DNA of 7,638 bases, taken from assembly GCA_030671985.1 (NCBI GenBank), contig DAOVHI010000064.1, positions 1-7,638 of the forward strand, given 5' to 3'. The notes beneath the pieces are model-generated. The model saw nothing but the letters and a program-made list of their open reading frames with translations, was not told the DNA's origin and ran no database searches. The position numbers were made by a program, and so were the translations under genes. Below, one piece after another: positions 1 to 7,638 of the stretch. Each line of letters starts with the position of its first letter. Positions within the stretch are counted from its first letter, which is position 1. The DNA is from JAHJDO01 sp030671985 [NCBI: bacterium] (lineage in GTDB: Bacteria > JAHJDO01).

Positions 1-563
1 AGCATGTCTTTTATTTTGCCTAAACAGCTATCCAGAGCATTTTTAATCATTCTCCTTATTCTTCGTTGTGATATATCTTGTGTTAAAGGATAAAAAGGAA
101 CGATTCTTCCTGTATGAATTAGCTCTTCAGTTTCGCTCTCTTTGTCTTTGAAACGTAAAATTTCATAAGACTGGCTGGATATTTGCAATTCCTTGCCGTA
201 TAGCTGAACCTTACCGCTTACAACAATCCTTGTGTCGACCTTGAACTGTTCTTCTAAAAACGGCTGATTAAACCATACTGCGTATATTATGCCCGTGCCG
301 TCGTCAATAGCTGCTTTGAGTACGCTTAAATTTTCCTTTAATTTTCGTACTCCGCTTGTTAGAACTTTTCCACTAACTGTGTACTGCATTCCAACACGGA
401 GCTTTGCAATAGGAGAAAAATCACTTCTATCTTCATACCTGCGCGGAATATAATAAAGAAGGTCTTTGACTGTTTGGATACCAAGACGCTCAAAAAACGC
501 CGTCCTTTTCGGACCAACGCCTTTCATATATTGGATAGAAGTATCCAGCTTAAGCATTGTCAT
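1..563 (-). CDS. recG: ATP-dependent DNA helicase RecG, N-terminal part (runs off the left edge)
   Basis: RecG is a cytoplasmic superfamily 2 helicase that remodels stalled replication forks and branch-migrates Holliday junctions. About 187 N-terminal codons are visible, and the frame stays open to the window edge. They cover the first helical segment and most of the wedge (OB-fold) domain. Diagnostic stretches are MKGVGPKRTAFFERLG near residues 13-28, DLLYYIPRRYEDRS just after, VVSGKVQLYGKELQI in the OB fold, and GRIVPFYPLT followed by the QRRIRRMI helix. The helicase motor lies outside the window. The start is the first ATG after an in-frame TGA; an alternative ATG lies at 557. Neither has a convincing Shine-Dalgarno sequence, so translation may depend on coupling to the upstream genes. 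The gene follows the DUF5131 gene on the same strand with a 49-nt gap and no visible promoter or terminator. Identity is clear by recall of the family; the exact start is less certain. Confidence 0.93.
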   Translation of the reverse strand, partial: MTMLKLDTSIQYMKGVGPKRTAFFERLGIQTVKDLLYYIPRRYEDRSDFSPIAKLRVGMQYTVSGKVLTSGVRKLKENLSVLKAAIDDGTGIIYAVWFNQPFLEEQFKVDTRIVVSGKVQLYGKELQISSQSYEILRFKDKESETEELIHTGRIVPFYPLTQDISQRRIRRMIKNALDSCLGKIKDM

Positions 564-612
564 GGTAATAAATATTCATTGAACTTCGTTGGGGAAAAAG
601 GGTGTGTGCCAT

Positions 613-1335
613 TTATCTAGCCTCTACTAACTGAGGCATTTGATCCCAATACTTGCCTTCTAGCTTGCGACCCGTTTTCTTCTTATTTATTCCGCCCCAT
701 TGTTTAAAGAAAAAAGGCACTTTTTGTTTTAAACATTGATCACGAAGATCCGTCACCCACTCAGGATCCATATATCGAGCACCAGGACCTGATTCTCCGC
801 CAACGATTACCCAATCAATATTCTTTAAATTAACTTTGCCTATTGATCCAATAAGCGGTTCGAATGAAACAAACTTTACATTCGCTTCTGTATATTTTAA
901 GCAATCTATCCTATCTTTATACTTGTCGTTCTCAATGCTAACGCCCATCCAAATATTTTTCCCCCAGGTAAGTTCGTCACATAACTCTGCCAAGCGATCC
1001 GCTCTTTTGGTAAGAATCTGAAACGTATGAATAGACGCTTTATTCATTACATCAAAAACTTTTTTAATAAAAGTTTTCGATACCTCGCGATGAAAAAGAT
1101 CGCTCATTGAATTTACAAAAATCGTTTGAGGTTTTCTCCATTTAAGAGGTAATTCAAGCACATGTTCATGACACGCCAACTCAAACCCATTTCGATAATT
1201 CACCTGTCCCATAGCCTGTAGCCTTTTTGCCATTCGTTCGGCATAACAATTCTCACAACCCGGACTAATCTTTGAACATCCAGTCACCGGATTCCACGTT
1301 GACTCTGTCCATTCAATAGAAGATTTTGAAGCCAT
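613..1335 (-). CDS. DUF5131 / phage Gp37-Gp68 family three-Cys-motif protein (radical-SAM-like)
   Basis: This 240-residue protein matches the Gp37/Gp68 phage family (DUF5131, Pfam PF07505) from end to end. The N-terminus has the signature [14 protein letters not shown] followed by CENCYAE. Cys20, Cys27 and Cys30 form a C-x6-C-x2-C set, which resembles the 4Fe-4S cluster motif of radical SAM enzymes but with wider spacing than the classic C-x3-C-x2-C. The later blocks [31 protein letters not shown] and [14 protein letters not shown] fit a TIM-barrel-like fold typical of the family. The C-terminal FFFKQWGG block is also characteristic. The substrate and reaction are unknown to me. It starts 2 nt after tcmP stops, with an AAGGAG ribosome site embedded in the last codons of tcmP, so the two are almost certainly co-translated partners. 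The length is usual for the family and I see no missing motif. Confidence 0.9.
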
Positions 1336-1337
1336 AA

Positions 1338-2450
1338 TTATTGCTCCTTATATTTGATAATAGCCAGATCTTTATTCCAGTTGGAATCTGCGATATAAAA
1401 ACCTCTGATTTTATTGCCTGTTTTATACTCAACTTCAATAAGCCCTTGCTTTTGCATATCTTTTAAAATTTCATTTGCATATTTATTGGTAAAACCTTTT
1501 TGAGCTACCACCTCTATAATTTCAACATTTGTCAGTACTTTTTCCTCTTTAATATACCCCTGTAAAAATTGTTTAAGGCGCACAAAATTGTTTGAAAGTG
1601 TTGAAAGATTGAAAAGCGTCGGCTCATTATCTCTTTTTGTCCTCACAGTTACACCATCATTGGCATATTTCCAAACCAATTTATTCATCAATATTGTGCC
1701 TGTTATATGCTTCGTAAGATGAAATAAAGCATTTTTCTTCGCTCCATCGTCCAGCCCAATAGATCTAACATATTTTAAGTTTAGGTATGTCAGTAATCTC
1801 TGTCGTATTGACTCATTAAAATCAGTAATATTTGAATAATCAGCGCAACCTCTATCAGTAAAGTTTTCCAAAAACTGTTTAAGCGCTACAACGTCATCTG
1901 CACAACTCACGAAACGATATGAATGAAACGTAGGTAAAAACAACAAAACTTCTGAAGATGGTGTATCAATTAACGTCTTAACATCATCAATAGTCACATC
2001 ACTATAAGTAAAAGGATCCAAAAAGAAAAACTTCGGCTCAGTGACTTTTCCAAAGACATTAATCGTCTTGCTAAGAATCGAATCAAATTTCTCACACAAA
2101 GGTCCAACAATTTTGATTTCGACTGGATAGTTACGCTGTTTTAATGATTCACTTAAATTATCTACATGCTTCTTGTTCATATCGCTAAAAACAACAAAAA
2201 CTTCGGGATCTTGCCACTTCTTCCTAAGCATTGGACTTTCAAGCATGCTTTTTGCGGCATCCAAGAGAATAAGTGGACTTCCGTCTTGATCCCCATTTTT
2301 CCCGGGACCGCAAAAAAAATCAGCAATAAAACATTTACCAAATTGCATCAGAACTTTTGGTAAATAATTTTTAAGATACTGTTGATAAATCAGTATTTTT
2401 GAAGCAGTCAAATCAGATTGTTCATCAAAAAACTTATTATGTCTCTTCAT
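1338..2450 (-). CDS. tcmP: Three-Cys-motif partner protein TcmP
   Basis: This 370-residue protein belongs by pattern to the TcmP family, named for regularly neighbouring DUF5131-type three-Cys proteins, as it does here. The N-terminal half looks like a Rossmann-type methyltransferase fold. [13 protein letters not shown] at residues 41-53 resembles SAM-binding motif I. VVFSD at 86-90 resembles the acidic motif [11 protein letters not shown] at 142-150 resembles the DPPY/DPFG motif IV of N-methyltransferases. The C-terminal third (about residues 290-360, with [29 protein letters not shown] and IRGFYI) reads as a winged helix that could bind nucleic acid or protein. No membrane segment or signal peptide is seen. 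Its start codon overlaps the stop of the preceding zinc-ribbon gene in an ATGA arrangement, indicating translational coupling. The reaction is unknown; the methyltransferase-like reading is my inference from motifs. Confidence 0.88.
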
Positions 2451-2656
2451 CTCCGCTCTTCTGCAGTAAGTTCACAATGTTCTGTGGCATGAACCCATAT
2501 TTTATAATCACAGCTATTGCATATATAAACATCTAAATCTGACAATATTTTATTGTCTTCGTCAATGTCAGACATGATAGAAGTCTCTAGCCCATCATAT
2601 TCCATAATCTCCCCACATTTGCAAATGTGTTCTTCTAAAGATATTTTATTGCTCAT
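2447..2656 (-). CDS. Small zinc-ribbon-like protein upstream of tcmP
   Basis: I do not recognise this 69-residue protein as a named family. It has two cysteine pairs, C12-K-C14 near the N-terminus and C46-N-S-C49 near the C-terminus. Each lies in a short hydrophobic context (HICKCGEIMEY and YICNSCDYKIW), the usual look of a zinc ribbon with two knuckles. His60 and Cys61 add further potential ligands. The linker between the pairs is strongly acidic. A good ribosome site (GGGAG, 8 nt before the ATG) overlaps the end of the PLD gene. The stop codon overlaps the tcmP start by ATGA, which argues that this is a real gene translated at a level matched to tcmP. Plausible roles are an adaptor or metal-binding accessory subunit for TcmP and the three-Cys protein. 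That is inference from position only. Confidence 0.75.
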   Translation of the reverse strand: MSNKISLEEHICKCGEIMEYDGLETSIMSDIDEDNKILSDLDVYICNSCDYKIWVHATEHCELTAEERR

Positions 2657-2660
2657 AACT

Positions 2661-3314
2661 TTATCTCCCTTTAAAATTCATTCCTGCATCGGTTAGTCTA
2701 AACAAGCCAGAATAAGAAGATTTTCTTTCAAAATAATATCTATTGTATTTGCCTTTCCAGCCAACTAAATCACCATATATTGCTCTTCTAATATTCGCAT
2801 CAATGTTGACAACACCAGTAAAATCCACTCCATGTTTTTTTAATTCATTTTTCCCATACTCATAAATATCCTGTAAGTGTACATATCCGTCTCTAGTTTT
2901 TGGCAACTCTTTTGCTGCATCTATTACTAATCGTCTCAAGGTAGGTCTGGTGCCGGGAAGCATTTCTTCAACTTCTTGTAATTTTTTTATTTCGGCTTTA
3001 GTTTCTTCTTTTATAAATGCTTTTTCGTGATGAGTAAGTACTGTTTTGTAAATTTTTTTGTATCCTTCAATGTATTCACAACTGGGTTCAAACACCGTTT
3101 CTTGCAACCTCATCTTTAAATAAAAATTAATCAACTGCAATATCTCGCTTTCTGTTTCTATTCCCTTAAGAACAATATTTAGCTCAATATTTTTAGACAA
3201 TCCACCTGCTGTCAAATTAGAAGAACCTACAACAGAAGTAACTTTACCTTCTTTATTCTTAATAATATATAATTTAGGATGGAAAATGGAAAAAATTGTT
3301 CTTATTAGGTTCAC
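2661..3314 (-). CDS. Phospholipase-D-like nuclease, C-terminal part of a frameshifted gene
   Basis: This reading frame carries the catalytic half of a PLD-superfamily protein. FHPKLYI supplies the H-x-K pair, and GSSNLTAGGL about twenty residues later supplies the Ser/Asn motif. The acidic residue of a full HKD motif is not at its usual place, as in several PLD nucleases that work as dimers. The C-terminal 100 residues (RPTLRRLVIDAAKEL, DANIRRAIYGDL, YSGLFRLTDAG) look like a winged-helix or restriction-enzyme-type DNA-binding tail. The nominal start is a GTG at 3314 with no ribosome site. It overlaps the upstream frame by 41 nt, so this is better read as the continuation of the 3585-3274 frame after a one-base frameshift at a T6 run. 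The joined product would be about 307 residues. It ends 4 nt before the zinc-ribbon gene. Whether the protein is made is uncertain. Confidence 0.8.
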   Translation of the reverse strand: MNLIRTIFSIFHPKLYIIKNKEGKVTSVVGSSNLTAGGLSKNIELNIVLKGIETESEILQLINFYLKMRLQETVFEPSCEYIEGYKKIYKTVLTHHEKAFIKEETKAEIKKLQEVEEMLPGTRPTLRRLVIDAAKELPKTRDGYVHLQDIYEYGKNELKKHGVDFTGVVNIDANIRRAIYGDLVGWKGKYNRYYFERKSSYSGLFRLTDAGMNFKGR

Positions 3315-3585
3315 TAAAACAAAATAATTTCATACCAGTATAGAATTCCTGAAGTTTTTTTAATTCAAATAAAGAATCAGGATCTGTTGTTCGAAAATCA
3401 AGACCAACTAAAAATTCAACTTTTCCCTTATTTTTTAGAATGTTTTCTATGTTGGATTTTAGCATGGAGAGTCCGGAGAGTTTTAAAAATGCTACAGAAA
3501 ATTTTAAATCATTTGCATCATTAAGAGAACTTTTTAGAACATCTACCAGTTTTGTATTCTCATTTTCTACAATTGCAATTTGCAT
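3274..3585 (-). CDS. Phospholipase-D-like nuclease, N-terminal part of a frameshifted gene
   Basis: This frame of 103 residues encodes the N-terminal half of the PLD-like protein. DLKFSVAFLKLSGL and KVEFLVGLDFRTTDPDSL are typical of PLD-like domains found in restriction endonucleases and in nucleases attached to helicases. The family sequence continues sensibly to about residue 97 (MKLFCFSEPNKNN). It then degrades to FHFPS and stops just where the catalytic H-x-K should appear, and that motif is found in the next frame. The start is an ATG with an AAGGA ribosome site 7 nt upstream, 14 nt after the stop of a methyltransferase remnant. Without frameshift correction the product lacks its active site. 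A nuclease partnered with a DNA methyltransferase stub suggests a former restriction-modification cassette, but the family assignment cannot decide between that and other defence nucleases. Confidence 0.78.
   Translation of the reverse strand: MQIAIVENENTKLVDVLKSSLNDANDLKFSVAFLKLSGLSMLKSNIENILKNKGKVEFLVGLDFRTTDPDSLFELKKLQEFYTGMKLFCFSEPNKNNFFHFPS
3290..3295 (-). other. Homopolymer frameshift site in the PLD-like gene
   Basis: The coding strand has a run of six T residues here. Removing one T joins the upstream frame (…NKNN) to the downstream one (FSIFHPKLYI) without loss of motifs. The run is thus the simplest site for the frameshift. It could be a true inactivating mutation, a sequencing or assembly error, or a slippage site that restores the frame in some transcripts. 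Confidence 0.6.
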
Positions 3586-3599
3586 AAAATTTTCCTTTT

Positions 3600-3686
3600 T
3601 TATTTCTCATACTCATTTATGCCTGTTTTGGCTACGCCTTCGCTGATAAAATCAAGCAGTTTAGTCTTGCAACCATAATATCTCAT
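3600..3686 (-). pseudogene. N-terminal remnant of a D12-class (Dam-like) DNA adenine methyltransferase
   Basis: A 28-codon frame begins MRYYGCKTKLLDFISEG, very like the opening of D12-class N6-adenine DNA methyltransferases, whose N-terminus has the form MRYIGxKxKLLxFI and contacts the SAM cofactor. It stops at TAA after EYEK, before any DIFSGTG-like continuation, so more than 90 percent of a normal gene of roughly 250-300 codons is missing. The start is credible: an AGAGG ribosome site sits 8 nt upstream and overlaps the lexA stop codon, so the original gene was co-transcribed and coupled to lexA. The stub is followed after 14 nt by the PLD-like nuclease gene, which places the break at about 3586-3610. 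I did not find the missing part in this window. The alternative is a short leader peptide, which the family-like sequence makes less likely. Confidence 0.6.
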
Positions 3687-3697
3687 ACAGTATTCCT

Positions 3698-4366
3698 CTA
3701 AATTTTCCTTATTACACCTTCTACTTTGCCAACTATTGTAACATTGCTTTTTTTTGGATCAATAATTAACGACTTCATTGTATCATTCTCAGGTTGTAAT
3801 CTTATCTTATTTTTATCTCTATAAAACCTTTTAACTGTTGCCTCGTCTTCTATTAACGCAACTACAATTTCTCCCTGCTCTGCCGTTGGTTGTTGACGAA
3901 CTAAAACAAAATCACCATCAAGAATACCAGCATTGATCATACTTGTACCTCTAATTCTTAAAGCAAAAATTCCTTTGGGATTTCTCGCAATAGATTTATC
4001 AACGAATAATGTTCCTTCAACATTTTCTTTAGCAAGTATAGGACTTCCAGCTGAAACGCTTCCTACTATGGGTACCTCTGAAACCTTATCGTTGGTGCTA
4101 TTGACATTATTTTTTCCTGATACAATATGTGTTAATATTTTAATTCCTCTTGACTTATGTGGACGGCGAGAAATATAACCTTTACGCTCAATAGCTTCAA
4201 GATGATCCTTAACAGCGTTAGGGGATTTAAAGGAAAATTCCTCTTGGATTTCAGGAATTGAGGGCGGATATCCAAATCTTTCTATGTTAAAAAGAAGGAA
4301 TTTAAATATTTTATTTTGACGCTCTGTGAGTAACGAACTCTTTGATTTTTTATTCGCAATCCTCAT
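3698..4366 (-). CDS. lexA: SOS response repressor LexA
   Basis: LexA represses DNA-damage genes and cleaves itself when bound to RecA filaments. All key parts are present. From the ATG at 4366 the protein is 222 residues. It has an N-terminal winged helix (YPPSIPEIQEEF then SPNAVKDHLEAIERKGYI), the self-cleavage site SAGSP (Ala106-Gly107), the catalytic serine in RGTSM (Ser142) and the catalytic lysine in ATVKR (Lys179). The length is slightly above the usual 200-210 because of a longer linker around residues 80-96. An in-frame GTG two codons upstream (4372) would give 224 residues, but it lies almost at the promoter -10 element and would precede the expected transcription start, so I prefer the ATG. 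A CTG-N10-CAG box within its own promoter shows autoregulation. The gene ends 11 nt before the methyltransferase remnant, suggesting read-through into the accessory cluster. Confidence 0.95.
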   Translation of the reverse strand: MRIANKKSKSSLLTERQNKIFKFLLFNIERFGYPPSIPEIQEEFSFKSPNAVKDHLEAIERKGYISRRPHKSRGIKILTHIVSGKNNVNSTNDKVSEVPIVGSVSAGSPILAKENVEGTLFVDKSIARNPKGIFALRIRGTSMINAGILDGDFVLVRQQPTAEQGEIVVALIEDEATVKRFYRDKNKIRLQPENDTMKSLIIDPKKSNVTIVGKVEGVIRKI

Positions 4367-4374
4367 TCGCACAA

Positions 4375-4403
4375 ATGATACTGTAATAATTTACAGTTGT
4401 CAA
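4375..4403 (-). promoter_or_regulatory. lexA promoter, sigma-70 type
   Basis: On the minus strand TTGACA (4403-4398) is separated by exactly 17 bp from TATCAT (4380-4375), a near-consensus housekeeping promoter. Transcription would begin at about 4368-4366, at or within two bases of the lexA ATG. This leaves essentially no 5' leader and agrees with the absence of a Shine-Dalgarno sequence. Confidence 0.8.
4379..4398. promoter_or_regulatory. LexA-binding site (SOS box) in the lexA promoter spacer
   Basis: CTGTAATAATTTACAG at 4381-4396 is an inverted repeat (CTGTAA, 4-bp centre, TTACAG). With its flanking bases it follows the E. coli-type SOS box TACTGT-N8-ACAGTA, including the invariant CTG-N10-CAG. 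It occupies the spacer between the -35 and -10 hexamers, so a bound LexA dimer would block RNA polymerase directly. Confidence 0.85.
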
Positions 4404-4462
4404 CTATTTTTGTGCTATCCAATTATTCCTTTATTAAAAGCGAAAAACTCAAACCATAAGAG

Positions 4463-4495
4463 AAAAAAACGGAATTTCTTAATTTAATCAAAGAA
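4463..4495 (-). terminator. Possible weak terminator after the DUF1844 gene
   Basis: In the minus-strand transcript a 5-bp stem (TTCTT/AAGAA, 10-nt loop, 4495-4476) is followed after 6 nt by a run of seven T residues (4469-4463). The stem is short and AT-rich, so this is only suggestive. It would separate the sulfatase-DUF1844 unit from the lexA promoter. Confidence 0.25.
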
Positions 4496-4512
4496 TGACG
4501 AAGCAATGATAT

Positions 4513-4875
4513 TTACTCAGGTAGTTTACCTGCCTCTACATACTTCATTCGTAAGTCGTATAGGATGTTGTCTATTAATCTGGATTCCTCACTGGTGAGA
4601 TTGCCTTTTGTTTTTTCTTGGATCATCGCTATAATATCTATCGTATATTTAGCTCCATCTAAATTCTTTTCTTCCTTCTTTGTAATGGGATTTGGGTATA
4701 TCCCCAAACTCATCATTGCCTGCATGCTGAGACTGGTTATAAACATCATGAAATTCACCTCTAGTGGAGGCATCTTAAATTCTTTTTTCTTGTCCTCTGC
4801 TACCTTCTCTTTCCAGTTCTTATCTTCCTTTTTTGTATTGAATTTTATATCTTGTTTCTTCTTTTCTTTGCCCAT
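4513..4875 (-). CDS. DUF1844 family protein
   Basis: This 120-residue protein matches DUF1844 (Pfam PF08899), a small family of unknown function. Residues 1-35 are a very lysine-rich, probably disordered tail. The conserved domain follows from PPLEVNFMMFITSLSMQAMMSLG to TIDIIAMIQEKTKGNLTSEE and the C-terminal LIDNILYDLRMKYVE helix, giving an all-helical soluble protein. An ideal GGAGG ribosome site (4885-4881) lies 5 nt before the ATG. It starts 17 nt after the sulfatase-family gene stops, so the two are probably one operon. That link gives no clear functional clue, because DUF1844 genes occur in varied contexts. Confidence 0.88.
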   Translation of the reverse strand: MGKEKKKQDIKFNTKKEDKNWKEKVAEDKKKEFKMPPLEVNFMMFITSLSMQAMMSLGIYPNPITKKEEKNLDGAKYTIDIIAMIQEKTKGNLTSEESRLIDNILYDLRMKYVEAGKLPE

Positions 4876-4880
4876 ATCAA

Positions 4881-4885
4881 CCTCC
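4881..4885 (-). promoter_or_regulatory. Strong ribosome-binding site of the DUF1844 gene
   Basis: GGAGG stands 5 nt before the ATG. It is the clearest Shine-Dalgarno sequence in the window, shows that this genome uses canonical initiation, and makes the lack of one at lexA and recG meaningful. Confidence 0.8.
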
Positions 4886-4892
4886 AGTTATA

Positions 4893-6188
4893 TTACTTAT
4901 TTAACAAAAAAGACGGCTTCTTAATCCAGTTATGCAACTTGTCTTTAAACTGGTTTGCCACATCAGGCATATCATAGATTAAGTTGCGCTTTTCTCCGGG
5001 ATCATTCTTCAAATTATATAGTTCATAGCTGCATTTATCTTTATTGTTTGGATCATAATTATATATGAGTTTCATTTTTGGTGTTCTTATAGCGTATATC
5101 TTTCTTTCATCTCCCTGCAGAGCCTGCCAGCCGCAAGGAGTTGTTTCCAGATATGCCTCTTCTTTAAAATCCGCATTGTCCCCTTTTGTAAGCGGCATAA
5201 GAGAATGTCCTTCTGTCTCTTTTGGCGTCTCAAATCCCATAATATCAAACAGTGTCGGCATGACATCGGTTAAAGAAACCTGGGTTTCAACCACTTTTCC
5301 CTCTGGAAGCGCTTTTGGATATCTTATTATTAAAGGCACCTTTACAACTTCGTCATACAAAGTGCCGGCAAGCGAGCACGACGAATGTCCTACGGAACCT
5401 CTCTCGCCTATTTCTTCCCCGTGATCTGCGGTTAGAACAACCATTGTGTCATCCAGAATCCCTAATTCTTCCAACTTCCTTATATATCCTTCTATTTCCT
5501 CATCCTGAGATCTTATTTCTCCGTCATATAAAGCCATAATAGCAGATTTGTCTTCTTCCAGAAAAGTCATTGGGCCTGCGCTTCGCGGATGTGTTGCCGG
5601 TTCTAGAATCCCCTCTGCCTGCTGTTGTTCAAACTTACTCACAAGACCCGGTTTATGTATGATCATTGTGCTTTTTACAATTCTAAGTTTTTCTTTTGTT
5701 GACTCGCTAATTGTCGATTCTTCAGGCATAAACATAGCGTCATAAGGCGATTTTGGATTATATGGAAGATGAGTTTGATAGGGAGCCCACCACAGAAAAA
5801 ATTTATCATTTTTGTATTTTCCAATTGCATTCTTCAAATCCTTTACTTCTACGTATTTTAATCCTGCATACATCCATTGATCACAGCCTGCTGTTATATA
5901 TTCGTTCTCCTTAAGTATCTCAAAAGGCTGTTTCCATTTCTTCCACAATTTTCCCTTAATCCACACATCATATGTTTTTGGACCATCTACCCCATGAGTA
6001 ATTGGATCCAGGCCAGTAAACATAGAGACCATAGCAGGCATTGTATGGGAAGCAGTGCTCACTGCATTCTTGAAAAGAATGCCCTCTTTTGCCAATTTAT
6101 CGATATATGGACTTGTTTTCTTGGGATAACTGTAACAACCTAAATTAGCAGATCTGAGAGCATCAGGCACAATCATTAACACATTCAT
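4893..6188 (-). CDS. Sulfatase-family hydrolase of the alkaline phosphatase superfamily, with threonine nucleophile
   Basis: The 431-residue product has the full sulfatase fold. It opens with MNVLMIVPDALRSANLGCYSYP, with a metal-binding Asp9, and continues with ASHTMPAMVSMFTG around residues 46-59. VVLTADHGEE supplies metal ligands Asp255 and His256, GH follows at 267-268, and the tail motif ELYNLKNDPGEKRNL is typical. The usual formylglycine site CxPxR reads TMPAM here. Thr49 sits where the modified Cys/Ser belongs and Met replaces the Arg, so maturation by formylglycine-generating enzyme is not expected. Threonine nucleophiles occur in phosphodiesterases and phosphotransferases of this superfamily, so the substrate may be a phosphoester rather than a sulfate ester. 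There is no signal peptide or membrane segment, suggesting a cytoplasmic protein. A GTG at 6203 would add five residues but has no ribosome site, whereas the ATG at 6188 follows AAAAGG. The gene is divergent from gyrA and is followed by the DUF1844 gene. Confidence 0.88.
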   Translation of the reverse strand: MNVLMIVPDALRSANLGCYSYPKKTSPYIDKLAKEGILFKNAVSTASHTMPAMVSMFTGLDPITHGVDGPKTYDVWIKGKLWKKWKQPFEILKENEYITAGCDQWMYAGLKYVEVKDLKNAIGKYKNDKFFLWWAPYQTHLPYNPKSPYDAMFMPEESTISESTKEKLRIVKSTMIIHKPGLVSKFEQQQAEGILEPATHPRSAGPMTFLEEDKSAIMALYDGEIRSQDEEIEGYIRKLEELGILDDTMVVLTADHGEEIGERGSVGHSSCSLAGTLYDEVVKVPLIIRYPKALPEGKVVETQVSLTDVMPTLFDIMGFETPKETEGHSLMPLTKGDNADFKEEAYLETTPCGWQALQGDERKIYAIRTPKMKLIYNYDPNNKDKCSYELYNLKNDPGEKRNLIYDMPDVANQFKDKLHNWIKKPSFLLNK

Positions 6189-6224
6189 TTTACCTTTTCC
6201 CACATATGATTTAACTGTGTGAAT

Positions 6225-6250
6225 ATTATACTTTTCTCTAATCTTGTCAA
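6225..6250 (-). promoter_or_regulatory. Putative promoter of the sulfatase-DUF1844 unit
   Basis: The minus strand has a perfect TTGACA (6250-6245) and a perfect TATAAT (6230-6225), but only 14 bp apart, shorter than optimal. A shifted -10 reading TAATAT (6228-6223) would give 16 bp. The expected leader to the ATG at 6188 is about 30 nt. Confidence 0.5.
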
Positions 6251-6257
6251 GCTTAGC

Positions 6258-6294
6258 TTTGGAGTAAAATCGGGTAAAAAATTATTTGGAGTAA
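6258..6294. repeat. 10-bp direct repeat TTTGGAGTAA upstream of gyrA
   Basis: Two identical copies of TTTGGAGTAA lie at 6258-6267 and 6285-6294, offset by 27 bp. The second overlaps the candidate gyrA -35 element. They may be a regulator-binding pair or a chance repeat in a short AT-rich region. Confidence 0.5.
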
Positions 6295-6315
6295 GAAGAC
6301 CAAACATGTTATACT
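6286..6315 (+). promoter_or_regulatory. Putative gyrA promoter with extended -10
   Basis: TTGGAG (6286-6291) is 18 bp from TATACT (6310-6315), and TG one base upstream of the hexamer gives an extended -10 (TGTTATACT). Transcription would start at about 6322, leaving a leader of about 26 nt to the ATG at 6348. Confidence 0.5.
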
Positions 6316-6337
6316 TCGAACTTGAGTGAAGAACCAT

Positions 6338-6342
6338 GGGAG
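6338..6342 (+). promoter_or_regulatory. gyrA ribosome-binding site that decides the start
   Basis: GGGAG ends 5 nt before the ATG at 6348. The earlier in-frame ATG at 6336 overlaps this site and has no comparable one of its own, so 6348 is preferred. Confidence 0.65.
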
Positions 6343-6347
6343 AAAGA

Positions 6348-7638
6348 ATGGATACAACAGAAGAGAAGGTAGGCTTAGTACACATAGAAGATGAAATGCA
6401 AAGGTCTTATATAGACTATGCTATGAGCGTCATTATCGGACGCGCTTTACCTGATGTTAGGGATGGTCTAAAACCTGTTCATAGAAGAATTCTGTACGCA
6501 ATGCACGAACTGGGCATTGCAAGTAATAAATCATATAAAAAGTCTGCCAGAATCGTTGGTGATGTTCTTGGAAAATACCATCCACATGGTGATGCGGCAG
6601 TATATGGAACAATGACCAGAATGGTGCAGGAATTCTCATCCAGAGAACCCTTAATAGACGGTCAGGGTAATTTTGGTTCAATAGATGGAGATTCGGCAGC
6701 AGCTATGAGATATACAGAAGTGAGAATGTCCAAGATAAGCGAGGAACTTCTTGTAAATATCGAAAAAGAAACCGTGGATTTTGTACCGAATTTTGATGAA
6801 TCCCTTCAGGAGCCTACAGTGCTTCCCGCCAATGTACCAAACTTGCTGATAAATGGTTCACAAGGTATTGCCGTTGGTATGGCTACGGAAATTCCTCCTC
6901 ATAATCTTGGAGAGGTTGTAGATGGAGTTGTAAGCATAATTGACAATCCTGATATCACGGTTGATGAACTGATGCATATCATTAAGGGGCCTGATTTCCC
7001 AACTGGGGCTACCATATATGGAAAGAAACCCATTAGAGATGCCTATCATACTGGAAGAGGGTTAATTCAAGTGCGCGCAAAGGTAGGAATTGAGGATATA
7101 AAAGAGACTGATAGAGAGCGAATAATTATAACAGAAATCCCGTATCAGGTGAATAAAGCAAATCTAATTAAAACAATAGCGAATCTTGTAAGAGACCATA
7201 AAATAGAAGGGATATCCGATCTAAGAGATGAATCCGATAAAGACGGACTAAGAGTCGTTATTGAATTAAAGAAGGGAGAAATTGCACAGATAATAATTAA
7301 TCAACTTTACAAGCACACTCAGATGCAAATCACATATGGCACCATCCTTCTTGCTATAGATGAAAACAGACCAAAGATTTTTAATCTACGTGAGATGCTG
7401 GATAAGTTTCTTCAGCATAGACAGGAAGTTGTGCGCAGAAGAACACAATTTGATTTAAGAAAAGCAAAAGCTAAGGCACACATTTTAGAGGGATTAAAGA
7501 TTGCTATCGAACATCTTGATAAGGTTATAAAAATAATAAAATCATCTAAGGATGCGGATTCGGCGCGTAGCAGCCTAATGCAAGAGTTTAAGCTTTCTGA
7601 CCTGCAGGCACGAGCTATACTTGACATGCGTCTGCAAA
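6348..7638 (+). CDS. gyrA: DNA gyrase subunit A, N-terminal part (runs off the right edge)
   Basis: GyrA is the breakage-reunion subunit of DNA gyrase (A2B2), which introduces negative supercoils. About 430 codons are present, roughly half of a typical 800-880-residue protein. They cover the winged-helix and tower domains and end in the coiled-coil at [14 protein letters not shown]. Visible landmarks are [48 protein letters not shown], the catalytic tyrosine in AMRYTEVRM, and [19 protein letters not shown]. From the ATG at 6348 the catalytic residue is Tyr122, the same number as in E. coli, which supports this start; ATG 6336 would add four residues (MGER). The GyrA box that would separate GyrA from ParC lies outside the window, so the gyrA rather than parC call rests on overall resemblance. 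At the quinolone-contact positions the protein has Ala83 and Gly87 instead of Ser and Asp/Glu. Confidence 0.93.

Follow-up and report, generated by a model that had tools for sequence, protein, structure and literature searches.

A TcmP/DUF5131 gene pair in a lexA-headed row: a candidate defense module with an exchangeable methyltransferase-like half

What do a methyltransferase-like protein and a radical S-adenosylmethionine (SAM)-type protein do together, and does a tiny cysteine-rich gene packed against them belong to the same system? The question is raised by contig DAOVHI010000064.1 of the bacterial assembly GCA_030671985.1, where a DUF5131 gene directly follows a tcmP gene. We analyzed the window, that is, the whole 7,638-nucleotide (nt) stretch at positions 1 to 7,638 of the forward strand. 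The DUF5131 gene (613..1335, reverse strand) codes for a radical-SAM-type protein of 240 amino acids (aa) with a Cx6Cx2C motif and is the constant half of the pair. The tcmP gene (1338..2450, reverse strand) codes for a class I methyltransferase-like protein of 370 aa with a C-terminal winged-helix-like part and is the variable half. The original prediction joined both to the tiny gene in a three-gene module for nucleic-acid modification, anti-phage defense or counter-defense. We tentatively favor, at somewhat below even probability, a horizontally acquired, PDC-M30-type two-enzyme defense module in a LexA-controlled cassette, its function being our inference.

Families, folds and residues of the two proteins

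The window's TcmP matches the family model TIGR04474 at 114.6 bits (cut-off 53), and the DUF5131 protein matches PF07505 at 343.4 bits (cut-off 28.9). Among the PADLOC models, DUF5131 scores highest with PDC-M41B (402 bits), above PDC-M30B. Both genes match the models of the defense candidate PDC-M30, in which A is TcmP (179.7 bits) and B is DUF5131 (389.4 bits), and they adjoin, 2 nt apart; these are raw bit scores. The window's pair differs from PDC-M30 in its surroundings, a stretch headed by lexA that also carries a PLD gene and a small cysteine gene.

We predicted single-chain structures with AlphaFold, using 44 alignment rows for TcmP and 35 for DUF5131. The TcmP model has a predicted local distance difference test score (pLDDT) of 92.0. 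Its best fold match in VIA-align is RlmJ, the 23S rRNA m6A2030 methyltransferase, which fills the first six rows (6qdx, Z 16.9, root mean square deviation [rmsd] 2.9, 199 residues), followed by histamine methyltransferase (Z 15.5, rmsd 4.1) and Trm1 (Z 15.0, rmsd 6.4). A sequence search of the PDB gave nothing significant (best E 0.41; RlmJ 0.85). Residues K18, G50 and D145 of TcmP are invariant in 44/44 rows, and a DxFxGxG loop is nearly so. In RlmJ, K18 of motif X and D164 of motif IV (DPPY) are essential by mutation, according to PMC3814359. TcmP's K18 and D145 would be the corresponding catalytic Lys and Asp, equated by motif order and fold rather than by an inspected superposition. TcmP thus resembles RlmJ in its fold, its invariant N-terminal-side Lys and its motif IV Asp; it differs in sharing only 9–11% identity, in carrying an extra C-terminal part and in being variable across loci. 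The assignment as TcmP in the original prediction stands, while the winged-helix tail given to it appears in Pfam only below cut-off (GMT-wHTH, E 0.096; MCM_C, E 0.046). The model has a confident C-terminal helix/strand part at residues 287–342.

The C-x6-C-x2-C motif by which DUF5131 had been called radical-SAM-like is present as C20-x6-C27-x2-C30. Residues C20, C27, C30, C201, K110-R111, E159-P160 and E181 are invariant in 35/35 rows. The model (pLDDT 88.3) is closest in VIA-align to spore photoproduct lyase (SplB; 4fhg, Z 13.3, rmsd 2.9, 190 residues). The best Foldseek entries are NifB (7bi7, E 2.2e-3) and spore photoproduct lyase (E 4e-3), and a sequence search of the PDB found nothing at E 1. 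Three invariant cysteines in 35/35 rows, with radical-SAM enzymes in the top VIA-align rows of the predicted model, point to a radical-SAM protein. DUF5131 shares with SplB the fold and the three-cysteine motif; it differs in its 11–12% identity, its Cx6Cx2C spacing, its length (240 aa vs about 340) and its usual company of a methyltransferase-like partner. A second likeness is to rSAM_mob_pairA and rSAM_mob_pairB (TIGR04471, TIGR04470), related radical-SAM proteins of mobile pairs, and a second partner family of TcmP, described below, matches pairB weakly. However, the window's DUF5131 scores 97.1 bits with TIGR04471, against a cut-off of 355, and its partner here is a methyltransferase-like protein.

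Viperin-like enzymes come second to spore photoproduct lyase among the folds matched by DUF5131 (9dgw, Z 11.6), which would fit a pair in which the product of DUF5131 is a chain-terminating nucleotide, activated or methylated by TcmP. We consider this very unlikely: spore photoproduct lyase scores higher, at Z 13.3, and a free-nucleotide product leaves unexplained the exchange of TcmP that we describe next.

Partnership and exchange of TcmP

The close packing originally described was confirmed. The small open reading frame (ORF) and tcmP share an ATGA overlap (2450–2447), a 2-nt gap (1337–1336) separates tcmP from the DUF5131 gene, and a ribosome site, AAGGAG, is embedded within the end of tcmP, 8 nt ahead of the DUF5131 start. 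The 2-nt gap is also found in L002, L004, L014, L042 and L072, and because it recurs in these five other loci, the tcmP/DUF5131 packing is not a matter of chance.

That the two proteins recur as neighbors, as had been stated, is borne out from both sides. A TcmP match is held by 62/80 DUF5131 genome loci and by 19/52 viral-contig loci, where matches were called with an iterated profile and some are fragments; from the other side, 36/48 TcmP loci adjoin DUF5131. Under a strict gap rule, among loci with room, TcmP lies directly upstream in 49/73 genome loci and 13/47 viral ones. The other loci among the 62 have over-long DUF5131 start calls, fragments, another placement or less room. Locus L038 was counted as a miss, its 266-aa neighbor having been missed by the profile; by eye, this neighbor resembles a divergent TcmP. 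Locus L041 has two tcmP/DUF5131 pairs within 12.7 kb (5012–6768 and 10396–12021), the second in reversed gene order. At L037:4577–6720 and L061:4586–6705, DUF5131 directly follows a KAP-family NTPase matching PDC-S20, with no TcmP, and the KAP NTPase is a possible alternative partner of DUF5131.

The TcmP-centered set comprises 19 of the 20 over-cut-off matches of one phylum and 29 of the matches of another. It is largely separate from the DUF5131-centered set, 3/48 loci being shared (L151, L164 and L165 coincide with L006, L011 and L005). Besides the 36 loci that adjoin DUF5131, three are cut, eight have another radical-SAM-type protein directly downstream of TcmP, and one, L167, has neither. 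Seven of these eight alternative partners score above the PF04055 cut-off, and that of L150 reaches 27.0 vs 29.5. In NCBIfam, they show likeness, far below cut-off, to PA0069, Rv2578c and mob-pairB, and in Pfam a weak likeness to PF07505. With 36 plus 8 of 48 loci so arranged, a TcmP without a radical-SAM-type partner is a rare exception in these two phyla, and the family of that partner is changeable.

TcmP is patchy but not rare, scoring above cut-off in 19/384 genomes of one phylum and 54/395 of another. Relatives were also found on 3 plasmids and in 5 records of Gordonia phages; the annotation of the phage gene is methyltransferase. A pattern search of viral contigs from one TcmP sequence gave nothing, though viral TcmPs exist, and the method is insensitive here.

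We then compared how the two halves vary. The analysis used 72 rows (71 loci plus the window). We excluded TcmPs that were shorter than 800 nt or lay far from DUF5131, and where a DUF5131 ORF was over-long, we cut it back to begin eight residues ahead of IEWT. Median pairwise identity is 66% for DUF5131 and 20% for TcmP. In the 17 row pairs whose DUF5131 proteins share at least 85% identity, TcmP identity is 17–21% in 10 and 58–100% in 7, with no intermediate values; one pair is identical throughout. Unequal rates of evolution alone do not account for this split. The 10 mismatched pairs fall in five groups: window/L002/L003; L036/L078 vs L039/L056; L069/L074; L067/L079; and L010/L052. The window and L002, for example, share 90% identity in DUF5131 and 21% in TcmP, whereas the window and L004 share 82% and 70%. 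Fourfold-degenerate sites of DUF5131 are 62–65% identical in window/L002, L067/L079, L010/L052 and L069/L074.

The DNA gives the same picture. In 7/7 mismatched pairs examined, the main similarity (76–88%) spans DUF5131 alone, beginning at −75 to +18 of its start and ending at most 61 nt from its stop, and in 6/6 matched pairs it continues through tcmP. Further short matches elsewhere, among the matches listed, were found for L010/L052, L069/L074 and L036/L056. When ten TcmP classes were placed on the DUF5131 tree, 30 changes were counted (minimum 9; shuffled mean 39.4, with 0/200 shuffles as low); the count covers classes with at least two members, which leaves 12 rows aside. Four or five TcmP classes cluster clearly on this tree and small classes do not; the tree was built quickly, and many of its branches are weak. 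The approximately unbiased (AU) test, run on 30 chosen rows with groups named after the first tree had been seen, rejects a single DUF5131 clade both for the TcmP class of the window (p 0.00017) and for the group L010/L025/L016 (p 1e-5). TcmP and DUF5131 are linked but often exchanged. The loci were picked for closeness of DUF5131, so the frequency of swapping is no population estimate; its existence is independent of that choice.

The lexA-headed row and its accessory genes

The original prediction ended the unit at three genes and overlooked lexA, a PLD gene and an SOS-type promoter. The real row is longer: lexA (3698..4372, reverse strand) leads it, and a PLD-like nuclease gene (2661..3585, reverse strand) ends 4 nt before the small ORF. 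The product of lexA is a LexA-type repressor by TIGR00498 (229.4 bits, cut-off 110.95), PF01726 and PF00717; its relatives in the genus are only 31–36% identical. Ahead of it lies a sigma70-type promoter, TTGACA-17-TATCAT (4375..4403, reverse strand), matching 11/12 consensus positions. This is the best of 16 sites in 500–4600 and the sole 11/12 score; because the number of sites equals chance (15.9 expected), it is the score and place that matter.

The promoter spacer is filled by a LexA-box-like inverted repeat, ACTGTAATAATTTACAGT (4380..4397), with 7-bp perfect arms (ACTGTAA-ATTA-TTACAGT). Its CTG-N10-CAG arrangement is of the kind seen in E. coli SOS boxes. The repeat has 0 mismatches to ACTGTAWWWWWWTACAGT; by chance, the window should hold 0.28 sites within 3 mismatches of this pattern. 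The 1.25-Mb genome holds one exact site and one more with two mismatches; a reversed control pattern gives the same number at two mismatches, so only the exact site is meaningful. At 4366–4403, the −10 box stands directly before the GTG called as the lexA start. Translation more probably begins at the ATG two codons further along, giving an almost leaderless message.

The whole row lies in a ~3.9-kb stretch (564..4512) between DUF1844 (4875–4513) and recG (563–3) that has no counterpart there in three sister genomes. The window's genome (G000) has 1.25 Mb in 152 contigs and is 92% complete; our sample of its phylum is five genomes, all of one genus, one of the others being 62% complete, and TcmP occurs in 1/5. 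DUF1844 and recG are directly adjacent in G001, G002 and G004, where the place of a sulfatase gene is also kept, and in G003 another gene precedes recG. Gain of the stretch in the window's genome is more likely than loss in the others, because the nearest DUF5131 relatives found lie outside the phylum: L002 (Omnitrophota, as is L005), L003 (Planctomycetota) and L004 (Nitrospinae), though near records may be missed. The stretch looks like an inserted cassette that DNA damage would turn on.

A DNA-repair cassette under LexA would share several of these features. In such a cassette, DUF5131 would reverse a DNA lesion that TcmP finds, by recognition or alkyl handling. The lexA gene and SOS-type promoter head the row, DUF5131's best fold is a DNA-repair enzyme, and recG is next door. 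However, the place beside recG says little, because DUF1844-recG is the ordinary arrangement in the three sister genomes and the row is the extra. The patchy spread (19/384 and 54/395 genomes), the defense neighbors described below and the repeated exchange of TcmP are also unlike a repair enzyme, and only two lexA-headed rows were found. We regard repair as unlikely.

The second lexA-tcmP-radical-SAM row, L160:560–3276, is in a genome from the phylum of L005 (lexA, 171.5 bits). Its lexA promoter has TTGACA and TATTGT around an inverted repeat, CCACACA-TT-TGTGTGG; this repeat differs from the window's, and the CTGT-N8-ACAG box was not found in L160. Weaker LexA-like ORFs lie near L017 (opposite strand), L092 (22 bits, same strand, 740 nt upstream of tcmP), L094, L102 and L105. 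A general LexA linkage of the pair was rejected, since the window and L160 were the sole loci where lexA was found directly upstream.

A frameshift divides the PLD-like gene into two ORFs, 3585–3274 and 3314–2661. The second matches PLDc_2 (31.5 bits, cut-off 27). The frameshift falls near a run of six T at about 3290–3300 and reflects either sequencing error or decay. Intact relatives of 307–308 aa occur in L207 and L208. Searches for PLD relatives gave no match in viral contigs, 6 weak plasmid records and matches in 13 of 384 genomes, 2 of these over most of the protein. Linkage of the PLD gene to the pair was rejected, as no relative was found in the sequence retrieved around each of the other 132 DUF5131 loci.

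This gene bears on a restriction-modification-like scheme, in which TcmP, with DUF5131, would mark host DNA while the PLD-like protein, helped by the small one, cuts unmarked DNA. The PLD gene is directly upstream and weakly NgoFVII-like in Pfam (E 1.4e-4, below cut-off), and at L208:344–3034 an intact PLD gene is followed by an overlapping small cysteine-rich ORF and then a DNA-methyltransferase-like gene (by eye). On the other side, the nuclease is not conserved with the pair, being frameshifted here and not found in the sequence retrieved around those 132 loci. We find such a scheme quite improbable. L208 is itself possibly a restriction-modification locus with a PLD nuclease. In L207, the other near-full-length PLD relative, no small cysteine-rich ORF directly follows. 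The small gene may thus belong with the PLD gene, although this arrangement was seen in only one case of two. We propose that both genes are local accessories of the pair.

The small ORF (2447..2656, reverse strand) codes for a zinc-ribbon-like protein of 69 aa with CxC and CxxC, which is not conserved. It has five cysteines (12, 14, 46, 49, 61), not the four first counted, and its start is preceded by a ribosome-site-like GGGAG. No Pfam or PADLOC family matched it, and NCBIfam gave a single chance-level row (E 0.24). Among PHROGs, it matched phrog_34603 (E 6e-4) and phrog_5768 (E 0.076) and nothing else. Similarity searches found no match in viral contigs, none among PDB sequences at E 10 and none in 384 genomes, the last without a positive control genome. 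The best phage match was at E 1, plasmid matches came at E 10, and one 12-bit match in the TcmP-centered loci lies away from the tcmP start.

The small protein had been put forward as a third subunit, to be dropped if nearly all other tcmP loci lacked it. We searched tcmP-DUF5131 loci for a comparable gene independently of sequence similarity, by a rule of 40–130 aa, at least 4 cysteines and two CxC/CxxC knuckles, just upstream of tcmP. An ORF passing this rule was found in 1/64 other loci with tcmP adjoining DUF5131 and enough room, in 1/46 of the TcmP-centered set and in 3/252 control genes. Relaxing the rule to four cysteines gave 4/64 (L039, L042, L097, L103) vs 25/252 controls. The two ORFs passing the full rule (L039, L202) are unconvincing by eye. 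Conservation was not found; with upstream counts at control level and no homologue, we rejected the zinc-ribbon protein as a conserved third subunit, and the tiny gene is probably incidental. It might instead be a genuine third subunit found in this lineage alone, a reading that its ATGA overlap with tcmP and its ribosome-site-like GGGAG favor. That is most unlikely given the counts elsewhere (1/64, 1/46, 0/384 genomes) and the four closest TcmPs (L004, 69% identical; L042, 68%; L005, 60%; L011, 51%), none of which has a rule-passing ORF upstream. L042 does have an ORF of 73 aa that contains five cysteines and a single CxxC; it lies 96 nt upstream of tcmP, and no similarity was detected.

Defense context and proposed function

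We scanned 130 of the 281 neighbor proteins of DUF5131 loci for defense and Pfam families, 25 of 306 and 25 of 160 families being listed. Among the matches listed, DISARM DrmD was found for 3/130 proteins, and the models for type III, type IIG restriction, Dsr1, MADS, RmrA and a BREX-type helicase for 2/130 each. The Pfam matches listed include ResIII (5), HSDR_N (2), GmrSD (2) and S24 peptidase (2). At L005:1–6747, tcmP-DUF5131 lies directly downstream of a type III restriction-like locus (by eye), the last gene of which has an apparent S24 (LexA-like) peptidase end and overlaps tcmP by one base.

The pair is already known as a catalogued defense candidate. According to PMC10855318, PDC-M30-type candidates come from guilt-by-embedding and are experimentally unvalidated; PDC-M30 was predicted in 32/100 P. 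aeruginosa strains, 68.8% of these being phage resistant. In Sinorhizobium meliloti, the TcmP gene SMa2243 follows hna (SMa2245), a defense helicase gene, in a regulated-gene table of PMC12445080, and the term TcmP also occurs in PMC7387457. In the TcmP passages of two papers, the name is only listed in tables, and DUF5131 is not named in the open-access literature searched. The pair's function, the exchange of TcmP, the second radical-SAM partner and the LexA-headed form were not found in the open-access literature, among the matches listed. TcmP module swapping, the alternative radical-SAM partner and the LexA-headed inserted stretch are therefore what is new here. Of the module originally proposed, the nucleic-acid-modifying, anti-phage part is favored by the PDC-M30 match, the defense neighbors and predicted folds that fit nucleic-acid chemistry; the zinc-ribbon subunit falls away. 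The pair is a widespread candidate anti-virus pair.

How might it work? LexA would keep the row silent and would cleave itself on DNA damage or phage attack, so that the row is transcribed; silencing until damage fits a harmful or costly product. TcmP would bind a particular nucleic acid and methylate a base exocyclic amine by RlmJ-type Lys/Asp catalysis. DUF5131 would make a 5'-deoxyadenosyl radical and attack either that base or the methyl group just added. The product would be a hypermodified or crosslinked base that blocks phage. Both predicted folds suggest a nucleic-acid base as substrate, and the proposed order, with methylation before the radical step, is guesswork based on the kinds of chemistry involved. 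Since DUF5131 is constant and TcmP exchangeable, TcmP may be the target chooser and DUF5131 the constant catalyst of one common radical reaction.

Type I restriction systems exchange their S subunits (HsdS). The likeness lies in a variable part swapped on a near-constant partner, as TcmP is on DUF5131; the difference is that the pair has no nuclease or translocase, and target choice by TcmP is our suggestion. Extending the defense reading, the pair would be a new class of anti-phage enzyme that hypermodifies its target in sequence: interchangeable methyltransferases would choose and prime the base, the near-constant radical enzyme would make a toxic or blocking lesion, exchange of the whole tcmP gene would spread specificity, and in some lineages LexA would silence the module until DNA is damaged. 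We consider this fuller scheme possible but doubtful.

Several points weigh against a LexA-controlled defense module of this kind. The activity of both proteins is put forward from sequence and models, and none is reported in the sources read. For TcmP, RlmJ is only 1.4 Z units above histamine methyltransferase, which Foldseek ranks first (E 1.3e-5). Motif IV reads DPFT, not DPPY, without RlmJ's second Pro and Tyr; position 146 is P in 40/44 rows and position 148 is G in 38/44 (mostly DPxG). For DUF5131, no PDB entry reaches E 0.001 in Foldseek, PF04055 (Radical_SAM) gives no row at E 1, and the cysteine spacing is Cx6Cx2C, the usual radical-SAM spacing being Cx3Cx2C. DUF5131 is also found without TcmP, solitary or with other neighbors. 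The AU tests for three other groups do not reject a single clade (p 0.108, 0.127, 0.194), and swapping shows modularity rather than proving that TcmP sets the target. The defense-neighbor counts are without a background rate, and the helicase models overlap. With lexA directly upstream only in the window and L160 among the loci examined, SOS control is not general. Both genes also occur in viral contigs or phages, so counter-defense or exclusion of rival phages also fits.

If the chemistry proposed for the defense module is true, radical chemistry on nucleic acid would be used in immunity, which we did not meet in the open-access literature examined. Module swapping offers a direct and cheap route to ask whether TcmP sets the target.

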